Shown: in pieces, positions 7,091 to 16,578 of the stretch | How positions within the stretch are numbered: position 1 is the first letter of the stretch | How the letters are laid out: every line of letters starts with the position of its first letter | Source of the DNA: Amanita rubescens | Lineage: Eukaryota > Basidiomycota > Agaricomycetes > Agaricales > Amanitaceae | DNA length: 17,476 nt | NCBI GenBank assembly: GCA_015039365.1 | Contig: WION01000788.1 | Coordinates: 1 to 17,476 of the forward strand | Reading direction: 5' to 3' | Notes under the pieces: generated by a model | What the model was told of the DNA's origin: nothing | What the model saw: the letters and a program-made list of their open reading frames with translations, nothing else | The model's database searches: none | Program-made: the position numbers and the translations under genes

Positions 7091-7634
7091 CGAGCCTAAC
7101 ATTTACATAGGTATACGTGCATGAAGTAGCACAAGAGATAGGATGAATATAATGAGTTTTTTGTGTCGCAGATATTGGATCTGCGTCAAGGGCAAGTTTT
7201 CCCCCGGTTTGACTGATAATGATGGACAGTGATAGAGGAACAGAGCGTGTATCAGGTGATGAGCCCAGATAGTTGTGTTCGGGATACGAGGAGATAGTTC
7301 CTCTAGTGCATTGGTATGAACGACCGATTGCCAATTGATGCATAACGAAATTACGAAGGTCCTGGTCTTCAGCTTCTCCATCCCGCCATATTACTCATCG
7401 GTGCAAATAGGCTGACCCTGAGCGCGTCTCGCTCACTGATGCCTAATTGTGTTCGCTCTGGTAGCGTCGATGCTGAGCACAGTACCAGTTGGTCCATGTC
7501 ATCCTTTTAGACAACCGTCAACACCTCCAGCACCTCAATTGCATTGCCCCCCCCAAAAAAAACGTCAACTTCTCAACTATCAGCGCTCTACTTGTTTGTC
7601 CAAGCAGGAAATGGCTGACCGACCGTGTGGTTGA

Positions 7635-7830
7635 ATTTTGAAATTGAAACGCCTATCTAAACCTGTCTGCAAACATTAGCTCCTCTTCCTTAGAATCCAC
7701 ATTTACACACATTTACCATGCTCGCCATCACATCCTTCATCTCTGCCATGGGCGCTGGTCGTCAATCCAAACACACTTCATCGTTCAAAATCGATGCCAC
7801 CGACGCGATTGCCGGTGTTCTTCACGTCCA
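7635..7830 (+). repeat. Duplicated segment, copy 2 (5' part of the small gene)
   Basis: Partner of 6905-7090. It covers about 80 bp of presumed leader plus the first exon of the small gene. That both leader and coding parts match shows a DNA duplication of a gene start rather than just a shared protein motif. Confidence 0.65.
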
Positions 7831-8175
7831 AGTTCCAAGGACGAGGAAAAAACCTGTCATCATCCTTTGACATTCAAGGATGGCTGGCTTGCCACTGCCG
7901 CCGTGTTCAAAAAGTGGAAAACGCAAATTGCCAAGAAAATCACAAAAGATAAGCGCTCCCTTCTTCCTAATGCTGACGCAGAGCATATGCAAAGGATTTT
8001 GCACCATGCGGCTTTCTTCGTTGCTATCAAGGCGGGTCAGAAGTTGAAAACGTCGACGGCGGTTTTCTGCACCTCTGAGTGATTTGACGCGATGTTTCCT
8101 CCACATCTTCACTATATCAGCAAGGCTTGGGAAGACGAAATCTCGGGGAAAATCCGGGAGGAGCTGCGGAAGTAA
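7718..8175 (+). CDS. Small unrecognised protein, three inferred exons
   Basis: Inferred exons are 7718-7825, 7879-8061 and 8125-8175, giving 113 residues. Exon 1 starts MLAITSFISAMGAGRQSKHT. The 53-nt first intron (GTCCAA to TTCAAG, with a TTTGAC branch-like site) joins it in frame to DGWLATAAVFKKWKTQIAKK. The second, 63-nt intron (GTTTTC to CAGCAAG) has a weak donor; it removes an in-frame TGA at 8080-8082 and joins to AWEDEISGKIREELRK. If that intron is not used, the protein ends at CTSE. The product is small, basic and helical, with no signal peptide, membrane span or motif I know. Copy 1 upstream keeps the GAGRxSKHT block, which suggests past protein-level constraint. It could also be a decaying gene. 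Confidence 0.45.
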
Positions 8176-8667: not shown

Positions 8668-11600
8668 ATGTCTAGCGCCGGAAACATCGATATCTCCGGC
8701 AGCCAGTTCACCGACATTGGGGGTGATCAGATCAATAATTACGGCCAGAGCCAGTTCATTACGGGCAACTTGAATCAAATTAACATGCCAGTGCATTATG
8801 GGAGCACTCGTGCGCTGTTTGCTTCCTACTCGTAGCTACCAGGTCGTGACCACATAGATACAGGGACTGTCTTTGATATCTTGAAGGACTCGAATCAAAT
8901 TGCTATTCACGCCGCCTATAATTCTGCAGAACGCGAGTCAGAACATGCATCAACCTGTCAAGAGGGTACTCGCGAAATGGTTTTGTCGAAGCTCATGTGG
9001 TGGTCCAAAGCTAGTGATGGATACCCAGTGTGTTGGCTCGAGGGACCTGCCGGCTCAGGGAAGTCGACAATCTTGCATACCATCGCGAAGCAATGTGACG
9101 ATGAGGGGCGGCTCGCATTCAGCTTTTTCTTTTCAAGAGGCAAAGCTGATCGCAGCGATACGGCTAAAGTCATCCCCACATTTGCGTATCAGCTTGCTCG
9201 ATCCCTTCCCGCAATTCAATCACCTTTGCTGCATGTGCTCACAAAGAGTCATCCATTTGCTCCTTTTCTCCGCTTGCACGATCAGCTCGAAAATCTCATC
9301 ATCAATCCCACTCTTAGCATTCAGCAGGCCACCCTGCCCATGGTTGTCATTATTGATGGCCTTGATGAATGTAGTGACGAGAATCTCCTACCGCAGCTCA
9401 TTCACGCACTTGTTGATGCGACCTATTACCTTCCATTCCGATTTCTCTTTGCAAGTCGGCCTGAATCTCATATCCGACAAACATTTGAATCCCCTTTGAT
9501 CAAACCAAAGGCAGACTTCCTCTCACTTCGAGACTTTCAGGCTCATCATGATGTCAGCAACTACTTGAAGCAGCATCTTACAGAAATACACAGGCAAAAT
9601 TACAACATCATGCAAAAAGTACCCCATCCTTGGCCATCGGCAGAACAGCTTGTTGCTCTTGTCCAGAAATCAGAGGGTTTATTCATCTATGTGTCAACCC
9701 TGGTCAAATTTGTGGGTGATAGGCAAGGGCTTCTTCCCCAGGAGAAGCTTGAGTTAGCTATAACAGCACATCATGGTGTTGATCCTCTATATGAGCAGGT
9801 TTTATCAAAAGCTCAAGCTGAGTCTGCTCACTTTTCCAGTGTAGTGGGTACCATCATATATCTCCACCACCCTCTTGCCATACATGACCTGGAGCAACTT
9901 CTACAGCTATCATCTGACCATATTCGACAAGCATTGCAGGGTTGCCAATCTATTTTTGTCCTTCCCAACACTGAAGAGGAATCAGTTCACCCATATCATG
10001 CATCATTGAAAGATTTTCTTAGTGATATGAACAGAGCAAAGGTTCATTTTCTTGACCCCAAGATGTACCATGTTACCATTCTGGTCAACTGCTTGCAGTT
10101 GATTGGGCAGGTGCATGACTCAAACCATGGTGGTCAACCTCTGAAATATGCATGTCAACAATGGTATTATCACTTCTCTTTGGCACTTTCACATCAGGCA
10201 ACAATTGATTTGATGAAGAACTGTGGAAACATAGAGGTGTTAATGGTGAAGTTGAGCAGAGAGTGGTTAAAAACTTGGATGTATGGGCTGGAAGATGGAT
10301 TAATGACTTTTTGTCAAGGTTGTGATTCTGTTCTTAAACAATTACAGGCAAGTTGTATTTAAACCACTATTGGAATATGTGCTCAAGCTTATCAATCAAG
10401 CCACTTCAAAGAGAGTGGAAAGTTGTTACAGAGAGTATGAATCAAATATTGGAGATTTCTAAGGTGAATAATCCCTTATGAAATATAATAGAAGGAAAAT
10501 GATTTTGTTACTCTGCTTAGAATGTATGTAACTTGATATATCATTGTGGCTCAAGTTGACTATCTTGTGCCTGAATAAATATCAGCTGGTGTGTATTTTG
10601 TCAATCTTTCTATAGCAAAGCAGCATTTCTCAAGCAATTATCTCTAGAATGTAAGCAAGTTGAATTTGTTCATATAATTGTCAAAATCTATTAATAATTG
10701 CTGTTCTAGAATGTAATATTTGTGCAAAATCAAAAACCAAATATATTGCTAACTGATATTTTGTATTTCATTACTGTATCATTAGAAAGTAAGTTGCTTT
10801 GTTTTACATGTTTGATAACTAGTAGATGGTGGTATTGATCACAAAATGTCTTAGTTGGTAAGTGGTACTTTCAAACATGAACATAATATTCTGATTATCA
10901 CTTTGTGGCAACAATCTGTGTACAGCAACTTGTAAGTGATTCAGGTTGACATGTGCAGAACCTCTTGGTGATGATTTTGTGGCATCTGGCTGTGTTCAGG
11001 GTGTAAGTGATTCAGGTTGACATGTGCAGAACCTCTTGGTGATGATTTTGTGGCATCTGGCTGTGTTCAGTATGTAAGTGATTCAGGTTGACATGTGCAG
11101 AACCTCTTGGTGATGATTTTGTGGCATCTGGCTGTGTTCAGAGTGTAAGTGATTCAGGTTGACATGTGCAGAACCTCTTGGTGATGATTTTGTGGCATCT
11201 GGCTGTGTTCAGGGTGTAAGTGATTCAGGTTGACATGTGCAGAACCTCTTGGTGATGATTTTGTGGCATCTGGCTGTGTTCAGGGTGTAAGTGATTCAGG
11301 TTGACATGTGCAGAACCTCTTGGTGATGATTTTGTGGCATCTGGCTGTGTTCAGTATGTAAGTGATTCAGGTTGACATGTGCAGAACCTCTTGGTGATGA
11401 TTTTGTGGCATCTGGCTGTGTTCAGTATGTAAGTGATTCAGGTTGACATGTGCAGAACCTCTTGGTGATGATTTTGTGGCATCTGGCTGTGTTCAGAGAG
11501 TAAGTGATTCAGGTTGACATGTGCAGAACCTCTTGGTGATGATTTTGTGGCATCTGGCTGTGTTCAGTATGTAAGTGATTCAGGTTGACATGTGCAGAAC

Positions 11601-13668
11601 CTCTTGGTGATGATTTTGTGGCATCTGGCTGTGTTCAGAGAGTAAGTGATTCAGGTTGACATGTGCAGAACCTCTTGGTGATGATTTTGTGGCATCTGGC
11701 TGTGTTCAGTATGTAAGTGATTCAGGTTGACATGTGCAGAACCTCTTGGTGATGATTTTGTGGCATCTGGCTGTGTTCAGGGTGTAAGTGATTCAGGTTG
11801 ACATGTGCAGAACCTCTTGGTGATGATTTTGTGGCATCTGGCTGTGTTCAGTATGTAAGTGATTCAGGTTGACATGTGCAGAACCTCTTGGTGATGATTT
11901 TGTGGCATCTGGCTGTGTTCAGTATGTAAGTGATTCAGGTTGACATGTGCAGAACCTCTTGGTGATGATTTTGTGGCATCTGGCTGTGTTCAGTATGTAA
12001 GTGATTCAGGTTGACATGTGCAGAACCTCTTGGTGATGATTTTGTGGCATCTGGCTGTGTTCAGAGAGTAAGTGATTCAGGTTCACATGTGCAGAACCTC
12101 TTGGTGATGATTTTGTGGCATCTGGCTGTGTTCAGAGAGTAAGTGATTCAGGTTCACATGTGCAGAACCTCTTGGTGATGATTTTGTGGCATCTGGCTGT
12201 GTTCAGTTTGTAAGTGATTCAGGTTGACATGTGCAGAACCTCTTGGTGATGATTTTGTGGCATCTGGCTGTGTTCAGAGAGTAAGTGATTCAGGTTGACA
12301 TGTGCAGAACCTCTTGGTGATGATTTTGTGGCATCTGGCTGTGTTCAGAGTGTAAGTGATTCAACAGGTTGACATGTGCAGAACCTCTTGGTGATGATTT
12401 TGTGGCATCTGGCTGTGTTCAGTATGTAAGTGATTCAGGTTGACATGTGCAGAACCTCTTGGTGATGATTTTGTGGCATCTGGCTGTGTTCAGTATGTAA
12501 GTGATTCAGGTTGACATGTGCAGAACCTCTTGGTGATGATTTTTTGGCATCTGGCTGTGTTCAGGATGTAAGTGATTCAGGTTGACATGTGCAGAACCTC
12601 TTGGTGATGATTTTGTGGCATCTGGCTGTGTTCAGAGAGTAAGTCAATTAGCTTGACATTGTGCAGAACCTCTTGGTGATGATTTTGTGGCATCTGGCTG
12701 TGTTCAGAGAGTAAGTCAATTAGCTTGACATTGTGCAGAACCTCTTGGTGATGATTTTGTGGCATCTGGCTGTGTTCAGACAGTAAGTCAATTAGCTTGA
12801 CATTGTGCAGAACCTCTTGGTGATGATTTTGTGGCATCTGGCTGTGTTCAGACAGTAAGTCATTCAGCTTGATATGTGCAGAATCTCTTCAAAAGTGATA
12901 ATTTTGTGACCCTTTGCTGGTACTTAGTTTGTAAGTTGTTTTCTTAGACTCAAAAAAAATTTTTTTTAATCATACATATTTGTATTTAGAATGTATGTCA
13001 CTTTTTATTTGTTGGGACATTTGCTAATGTCCCTCTTGCTCATAAATCAGAATGTATGTACTTTTGTTCATTCCTTTACACCTGTGCTTCAGCACTCAAA
13101 ATTTGTAGTGGGCATGTTACTTTTTTACATTTACATTCAAATTATGCTAACATTGTTTATTAATGTTATCAGAAGGTTAGTGGATTTTTTAACTAATTTA
13201 AATTCAAATCTTTACTCTTTCTCTTGTCAGGAGGTATATGTAATACATCTTTTCTATCTCTGATTTGTATGCTGACTCTACTATTGTCTACTAAACTTAG
13301 TTGGTATGTTTCTTTACTCTTTTATGCTTAATAACTGAATTAATGTTATTTTTTGACTTCATTTTCAGATTGTATGGTTCTTCATCTGCAGTGCAGTGCA
13401 GAACTTTCTCATCTTTTTTCCTTTAGGATGTCAGTTTGTTACTCCTCATTTCAATTTTTATCAATGCAAATTTTAAATTGGGAATTTGCTAGCATGTATG
13501 TATCCTCTTTGTTCTATACATAGCATACTAACATTTACCAATTACTTGTCTTTGAAGTACTTTGGTGCTGTTTTTAATTCTTCTATCTGTTTCCTGTTGT
13601 CATTAAAATATTCTACAGACAATTTTGTGCAACATTTCAAGTTGGATTGCACTCCCCCTCTCACCTAA
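8668..13668 (+). CDS. NACHT-domain NLR-like protein with a 3' run of one-codon microexons
   Basis: Fungal NLR-like signal-transduction NTPase. Exon 1 (8668-8790) encodes 41 residues including GSQF, GGDQINN and GNLNQIN. A 45-nt intron (8791-8835, GTGCAT to TCGTAG) removes an in-frame TAG. Exon 2 (8836-10347) carries the NACHT core: P-loop GPAGSGKST (residues 111-119), Walker B VVIIDGLDEC (211-220) and FASRPE (246-251). It also has the helical region ending in HPYHASLKDFLSD, the HxSFxDFL-type block usual in this family. A GC-AG intron (10348-10400) leads to exon 3 (10401-10463, PLQREWKVVTESMNQILEIS). Forty-four inferred microexons follow, then a last exon at 13558-13668. The product would be about 647 residues. 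No WD40, ankyrin or TPR sensor repeats are present. If splicing fails after 10347, the protein stops at 10362. Exon 2 is certain; everything after 10347 is inferred from splice signals and frame. Confidence 0.75.
10464..10931 (+). other. Non-repetitive part of the microexon run, 5' side
   Basis: Seven intron-like units of 57-73 nt, unrelated to each other in sequence: 10464-10520, 10524-10585, 10589-10647, 10651-10709, 10713-10785, 10789-10854 and 10858-10925. They are separated by AAT, CTG, AAT, AAT, AAA and TTG (3 nt each), and the seventh is followed by CAACTT (6 nt). Acceptors are TAG or CAG; donors are GTGAAT, GTATGT, GTGTGT, GTAAGC, GTAATA, GTAAGT and GTAAGT. Branch-like sites include GCTAAC in the 10713 unit and TTGAC in the 10524 unit. 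The sequence is AT-rich. The regular architecture without sequence similarity is the evidence. Confidence 0.65.
10932..12854 (+). repeat. Tandem satellite of 27 intron-shaped units (71-72 bp)
   Basis: Units start at 10932 and recur every 71 bp, with one of 74 bp at 12352 (an in-frame 3-nt insertion AAC) and the last three of 72 bp (12639, 12711, 12783). Every unit starts GTAAGT and ends TGTGTTCAG, followed by a variable triplet and the next GTAAGT. Copies are nearly identical outside the triplet. Triplets are TAT (10), AGA (7), GGT (4), AGT (2), ACA (2), TTT and GAT. Variants include TTCACATG for TTGACATG in the units at 12068 and 12139, one G-to-T change near 12544, and CAATTAGCTTGACATT in the last three units. 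A 28th, strongly diverged unit follows at 12855. Confidence 0.97.
12855..13557 (+). other. Non-repetitive part of the microexon run, 3' side
   Basis: Eleven intron-like units: 12855-12927, 12931-12989, 12993-13050, 13054-13108, 13112-13172, 13176-13230, 13234-13300, 13304-13368, 13372-13426, 13430-13492 and 13496-13557. They are separated by TTT, AAT, AAT, TGG, AAG, GAG, TTG, ATT, GAT and CAT. The first is a decayed satellite unit; the others are unrelated T-rich sequences. The unit at 13112 begins GCATGT (GC-AG type) with GCTAAC 21 nt before its acceptor. The last has a perfect TACTAAC (13526-13532) 25 nt before TTTGAAG. The following frame stays open to TAA at 13666-13668. Confidence 0.65.

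Positions 13669-15124: not shown

Positions 15125-16578
<1,454 letters not shown>

Follow-up and report, generated by a model that had tools for sequence, protein, structure and literature searches.

The original account of the microexons in the nank genes of Tuber melanosporum is reportedly that of Iotti et al. in 2012. As summarised in four articles, these NACHT-ankyrin genes of an ascomycete contain dozens of alternatively spliced microexons of 3 bp, which are said to diversify the C-terminal recognition domain (PMC4986451, PMC3689799, PMC10197012, PMC9815663). Here we analysed a stretch of 17,476 nt from Amanita rubescens (contig WION01000788.1, designated C746; hereafter the window), in which a gene encoding a NACHT-type NOD-like receptor (NLR) is followed by a long array of intron-like units separated by single codons. 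Like the nank genes as described in those summaries, the window gene encodes an NLR of the NACHT type in a fungus, and its codon-sized exons likewise run into the tens, with 44 microexons predicted here. Codon-sized microexons in an NLR family are already known from Tuber, and the statement of an earlier note on this DNA that no gene of such a kind had been described does not stand. In the open-access literature, largely titles and abstracts, we found no report of such exons for a basidiomycete, for GTPases or on a comparable scale, nor of codons that vary in this way while the introns beside them are identical.

We regard it as probable that the 3.1-kb array consists of 45 introns and 44 in-frame microexons that are spliced singly, yielding an NLR with a hypervariable segment of 45 residues. 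This reading draws on the anatomy and frame of the array, on the near-absence of stop triplets from such units genome-wide, and on the same architecture in a GTPase family, where it lies between two conserved domains. Moreover, intron-free environmental proteins contain the one-codon residues of the GTPase family joined together, and by analogy the NLR units would be spliced like those of the GTPases. The features of the gene and its array are as follows.

8668..8800, forward strand: N-terminal NLR coding exon, starting MSSAGNIDISGSQFTDIGGDQINNYG; placed by tblastn with P0001, residues read by eye, 3' end approximate.
8836..10347, forward strand: main NLR exon, an NPHP3_N/NACHT P-loop NTPase by Pfam and protein identity; 8836 is the start of the open frame, and the actual start of the exon may differ.
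10348..10400, forward strand: predicted GC-AG intron of 53 nt, with TAA at 10360 if read through.
10401..10463, forward strand: predicted short exon PLQREWKVVTESMNQILEISK, phase 0, which resembles Tricholoma homologues as judged by eye.
10464..10931, forward strand: left outer units, not part of the tandem repeat, with 7 introns, the 3-nt microexons N-L-N-N-K-L and the 6-nt microexon QL (10926-10931).
10932..12854, forward strand: homogeneous array of 71-bp units in which 27 introns alternate with the 27 one-codon exons GYSGGYYRYRYGYYYRRFRSYYDRRTT, a GTAAGT donor following each exon.
12855..13557, forward strand: right outer units, 11 introns with the one-codon exons F-N-N-W-K-E-L-I-D-H and a GC donor (13112) after W.
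13558..13668, forward strand: predicted last exon, YFGAVFNSSICFLLSLKYSTDNFVQHFKLDCTPPLT, an open frame ending in a TAA stop.

The annotated A. rubescens homologue P0001 aligns to 8668-10359 of the window by tblastn. The main exon matched NPHP3_N (4.3e-26) and NACHT (2.7e-13) in Pfam and was 92% identical to one A. rubescens protein; no ankyrin, WD or TPR family was found in the predicted 606-aa NLR protein among 12 Pfam families (E up to 0.1). The 53-nt GC-AG intron is also present in L049 and L050, the two fetched copies of the window NLR, and the PLQREWKVVTESMNQILEISK exon behind it looks, by eye, like the tails of the Tricholoma homologues P0023 and P0039. The C-terminal end of P0001, ASCI, corresponds to residues read from the start of this intron. 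The phase 0 at 10463 holds only if the predicted intron is removed; with that proviso, the array junctions are in frame, as the earlier note had claimed.

Every unit between 10464 and 13557 was enumerated, which bore out 45 intron-like units of 55-73 nt, 43 microexons of 3 nt and one of 6 nt, no stop triplet and an open last exon. The triplets continue the frame of the NACHT gene into that last exon. The repeated AG-NNN-GT described earlier is strict in 42 of the 44 microexons, the exceptions being the hexamer and the triplet 13109-13111 with its GC donor. Because 27 of the microexons sit in one 71-bp tandem repeat, they are not 27 independent observations; the units flanking the repeat, with 7 microexons on the left side and 10 on the right, are diverged or unrelated, and the independent support for the array is provided by these outer units and the genome-wide data. 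The longest stop-free chain with the right spacing, using GT donors only, comprised 30 sites, whereas 300 dinucleotide shuffles produced none longer than 5, and the six-site chains in the left and right outer parts were each matched by 0 of 300. Chance runs of AG-NNN-GT were excluded by these shuffles and by reversed-pattern controls. A 103-aa frame on the minus strand (12577-12888) was set aside as a presumed by-product of the 72-nt spacing of neighbouring units.

Across the 75.7-Mb assembly, the strict pattern AACAG-NNN-GTRAGT occurred 4,498 times against 105 for the reversed pattern, and a paired pattern of CAG acceptor and GTAAGT donor occurred 262 times against 0. Inserts of 4 nt (77 vs 156 in the reversed control) and 5 nt (87 vs 93) showed no genome-wide excess, and inserts of 6 nt showed a slight one (136 vs 96). 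TAA and TGA together made up only 3 of the triplets (control 6), whereas AAA, AGA, CAA, CGA, GAA and GGA made up 2,124 (control 9). These strict counts derive from GTPase-type arrays.

Twenty array loci of 9.9 kb each were fetched, picked for 3-nt units and hence not a random sample; together with the window they make 21 oriented stretches. Within these, the distance from AACAG to GTRAG[TC] was 3 in 460 cases, 6 in 10, 9 in 2, 12 in 1, 15 in 3 and 0 in 1, with no case at 1, 2, 4, 5, 7, 8, 10, 11, 13 or 14; the classes of 6, 9, 12 and 15 are free of the selection for 3 nt. With the looser CAG acceptor and GTRAGT donor, 644 sites lay at distance 3 and 22 at distance 6. None of the 469 strict triplets, all of which stem from GTPase-type loci and none from NLR copies, is a stop (about 32 expected from base composition). 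The looser sites contained 2 stops in 924 triplets (about 63 expected), both in L046, and 0 of 122 in the window, L049 and L050, which are copies of one another and not independent. The third position of the triplets is mostly A or T; C occurs in 7 of 924, perhaps because NNC before GT makes a CpG. A splice-chain model without a frame rule made 1,049 of 1,180 exons 3 nt long (both L046 strands counted), with 61 exons longer than 15 nt; with the frame rule, one-codon exons accounted for 1,076 of 1,121 (one L046 strand).

Eighteen of the 20 fetched loci belong to the GTPase family, a share that applies to the fetched loci and is not a genome-wide estimate, and the other two are L049 and L050. 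The assignment comes from a weak MMR_HSR1 match (E 4e-4), under Pfam's cut-off; the GTPase fold is nearest to the immunity-related GTPases (IRG), by a margin that is not wide, and this likeness is a lead rather than a membership. The G domain was found in 14 of the 18 loci, 13 of which also have a C-terminal domain after the array. In these 13, the G domain ends at most 430 bp before the array, and the C-terminal domain follows within 430 bp in 12 and at 1.26 kb in L043. In L033, L042 and L045 the C-terminal domain alone was detected, and L047 was placed by its W-F-E head, its C-terminal domain match preceding the array. The sequence W-F-E-x-G-K, with each residue in its own predicted exon, opens the array in 7 of the 18 loci, the heads being diverged elsewhere. 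Predicted one-codon exons number 30-82 per locus; their residues are rich in E, G, Q, F, L and R in the GTPase arrays and in Y, R, D, G and T in the NLR arrays. L046 (C154:36400-46300) has one array of one-codon exons on each strand, and each of the two is followed by a C-terminal domain.

Environmental relatives of the GTPases read through G-domain sequence that is intron-split in A. rubescens (L034, by eye) and then into a tail. Eight tails were aligned, from 28 environmental proteins among 120 of 1,662 matches listed; the eight proteins lie on contigs of 1.2-1.9 kb, which are likely spliced transcripts and look like cDNA because the introns are missing. Each tail was scored against peptides from 22 oriented stretches, every pair was compared with 100 shuffles, and the best of the 22 was taken as the partner. 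P0121, whose tail contains NEQLSETKWFEKGKKESDREIEYDGG, scored 104 against a shuffled maximum of 45 and, in an alignment with one gap, matched L032 at 14 of 16 consecutive one-codon residues. P0134, whose tail contains EMANKQLSEAQWFEHGKKDTDKQIVYDGE, scored 124 (shuffled maximum 48), and P0169 scored 70 (47). The other loci of the genome and these GTPase-family proteins give strong support to reading the triplets of such arrays as in-frame one-codon exons.

The same proteins suggest where the variation lies. Between P0161 and P0166, identity is 96% in the N-terminal part and 95% in the C-terminal domain but 59% in the linker, which has 21 gap positions and is the variable part. A protein search with the P0161 tail returned 4 proteins, 2 of them new. 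AlphaFold modelled P0169 with a predicted local distance difference test score (pLDDT) below 50 for the linker (318-359), which lies between better predicted domains. The GTPase relatives P0237 and P0235 have linkers with runs of E (plus H in P0237), comparable to the runs DDDDDDD and TTTTTT in L050.

Eight NLR loci were found, on C746 (the window), C321 (two), C223, C557 (two), C716 and C605. Seven of them, the window included, are close copies (93-100%) with an open frame of 506-508 codons. The C605 locus is a broken copy, represented by four pieces that are 77-81% identical as protein, one with in-frame stops. In a search that skips very common words, the 234 matches to the array unit fell, among the matches listed, in eight candidate stretches, which are the eight NLR loci; among the same matches, the C605 array introns were 99-100% identical to the unit, which would mean either that loci exchange sequence or that the intron is constrained. 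The C321 copy L050 contains about 690 bp (7322-8008) directly before the last exon that are absent from the window near 13506-13510.

The units of the three NLR arrays examined combine nearly constant introns with variable triplets. A search pattern caught 27, 31 and 31 units in the window, L049 and L050, and 4, 4 and 5 with other intron lengths were left out. The 23 window units with 68-nt introns varied at 2 of 68 intron positions (diversity 0.0037) with a triplet diversity of 0.55; the corresponding values were 7 of 68, 0.0136 and 0.55 for the 27 units of L049, and 2 of 68, 0.0033 and 0.54 for the 26 units of L050. Nine triplet types occur in the three arrays, encoding nine residues (Y, R, G, D, E, S, F, L and T) without a synonymous pair. 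All nine are connected by single nonsynonymous base steps, so ordinary point mutation plus selection is sufficient, though targeted mutation of the triplets is a conceivable alternative. Among the 575 pairs of units whose introns are identical, 75% carry different triplets, a large amount of change for a short time; the GTPase loci offer only 6 such pairs, with 0.44 differences per site. Between the near-identical copies L045 and L019, one triplet (L045 position 3407) is swapped whole from CTT to GAA, which amounts to three changes, and the intron bodies differ at 1.6% of sites.

The triplet is not wholly independent of its own intron, as pairs with identical introns shared the triplet in 54, 44 and 62 cases against shuffled means of 41.0, 31.2 and 47.6. 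Neighbouring units shared a triplet at 19 of 30 junctions in L050 (5.4 expected), as local duplication would give, with little excess in the other two arrays (8 of 26 vs 5.5 and 8 of 30 vs 5.9). The window, L049 and L050 have common outer residues, NLNNKLQL before the repeat and FNN and KEL after it, whereas the inner residues differ in number and order.

Several observations weigh against single splicing of the NLR units. No transcript of the window NLR or its array was found, and the annotated homologue P0001 terminates before the array. The acceptors of the window array are TTCAG, and AACAG acceptors number 0 in the window, L049 and L050; the NLR arrays thus fall outside the strict counts, which bear on them by analogy only. 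The looser CAG and GTRAGT sites also lay at distances of 0 (13 cases), 2 (5), 4 (7), 5 (5) and 7 (1), and in the frame-free splice-chain model the remaining exons of up to 15 nt comprised 40 multiples of three and 30 that are not. Among the environmental tails, for which the choice of the best partner of 22 is itself a weakness, P0184 (47 vs 35) matched mainly within one 15-nt exon, P0140 (51 vs 46), P0166 (49 vs 41) and P0161 (43 vs 38) scored barely above the shuffles, and P0183 (30) scored below its shuffled maximum (37); the best partner of P0161 was an NLR copy, a match likely due to chance. Moreover, in near-identical GTPase locus pairs, which are probably alleles, codons evolved no faster than introns, with changes at 6 of 318 exon sites and at 98 of 5,729 sites in the intron bodies; 7 of 975 splice-core sites had changed. 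This comparison covers four locus pairs, with L022/L025 (95% identical) left out.

Part of this evidence would suit an array that is one large intron with decoy splice sites, in effect a minisatellite that is skipped or removed in large jumps and adds few or no residues. The missing NLR transcript and the lack of NLR units in the strict genome-wide tests are compatible with it, as is the position of 27 microexons within near-identical tandem repeats, and since any skipped set stays in frame, the gene could tolerate splicing straight from 10463 to 13558. Decoys, however, would not explain why TAA and TGA are avoided in such arrays while inserts stay multiples of three, nor why relatives in the GTPase family join about 16 successive one-codon residues, nor why the NLR intron is constant while its triplet varies without a synonymous pair. 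We therefore consider this explanation unlikely, though it deserves more weight than the following two.

If the units were instead a mobile or self-copying intron, similar to an introner-like element, the triplets would be insertion-site duplications and not selected codons. The nearly unchanged introns beside all eight NLR loci, including C605 with its much more diverged gene pieces, could be so explained. Against this, the listed unit matches are confined to the NLR family, the other arrays listed have different introns, and site duplications would neither avoid stops nor spell conserved peptides, which makes such an origin very improbable. We give equally little credence to the arrays being decaying pseudogene tails of a recently expanded family that are open by chance: the in-frame stops in one piece of C605 fit decay, but all seven other copies keep the open frame, stops are avoided genome-wide, and splice cores diverge less than intron bodies in the allele comparison.

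Under the preferred reading, in which the microexons are spliced one by one, every unit carries its own donor and acceptor, and the shortness of the introns (55-73 nt) would make intron definition and stepwise joining plausible. As every unit is in phase 0 and has a length divisible by three, the frame survives the skipping of any of them, and combinatorial isoforms might arise in this way. The resulting NLR or GTPase would contain a flexible stretch about 30-80 residues long. Unequal exchange and conversion may keep the introns alike within and between gene copies, and codon changes may be favoured while the introns stay alike. The hypervariable segment is probably a recognition surface, and a role in non-self recognition appears likely by analogy with fungal NLR repeats, which are described as being under diversifying selection (PMC4986451). 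More tentatively, and with rather more reserve than for the window array itself, NACHT receptors and IRG-like GTPases might form one genome-wide system with one exon per residue, introns homogenised and codons driven apart, producing a hypervariable recognition loop and a vast isoform space.

If this is true, the spliceosome routinely includes dozens of consecutive 3-nt exons with acceptor and donor three bases apart, which is hard to square with exon definition and would make intron definition or stepwise splicing directly testable. A rough extrapolation gives about ten thousand units in the assembly, based on the 4,498 strict sites and on the strict form catching 469 of 1,109 one-codon exons in loci that were not randomly drawn. 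NLRs and the GTPase family would then be linked by a shared loop-diversifying device. Annotation could miss such protein segments, as the annotated A. rubescens NLR simply stops. Additionally, repeats in which the intron is fixed and one codon is free offer a clean natural system for telling mutation and selection apart.

Elsewhere in the window, a minus-strand frame at 15180-15647 encodes a WDR5-like WD40 protein, and another at 2104-2652 on the same strand has a GRAM-domain match slightly below Pfam's cut-off.

Several described systems share individual traits with the window array. The HNWD-type NLRs, with WD, ANK or TPR repeats (PMC4986451), also have near-identical repeats with few hypervariable codon positions and repeat-number polymorphism; their repeat is a coded structural motif, whereas 68 of the 71 nt of the window unit are predicted intron and one codon is coded. 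The micro-exon genes of Schistosoma (PMC10526429) likewise combine many short exons with variable proteins, but their exons measure 3-81 bp, their introns reach 5 kb and the proteins are secreted, in contrast to the near-uniform 3-nt exons, 55-73 nt introns and NLR-type product of the window gene. Recursive splicing sites (AG|GT; PMC13149111) resemble the array in placing a donor after an acceptor, so that stepwise splicing is possible, but the array has three coding nucleotides between the two and its introns are tiny, not very long. The nank genes of Tuber are nearest. Judging from the summaries cited at the outset, alternative splicing is reported for them; in the window gene it would be possible. 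The window gene differs from them in belonging to a basidiomycete, in a predicted protein without an ankyrin repeat and in a 71-bp unit with a variable codon, and A. rubescens, unlike Tuber as described there, has the same device in a GTPase family.

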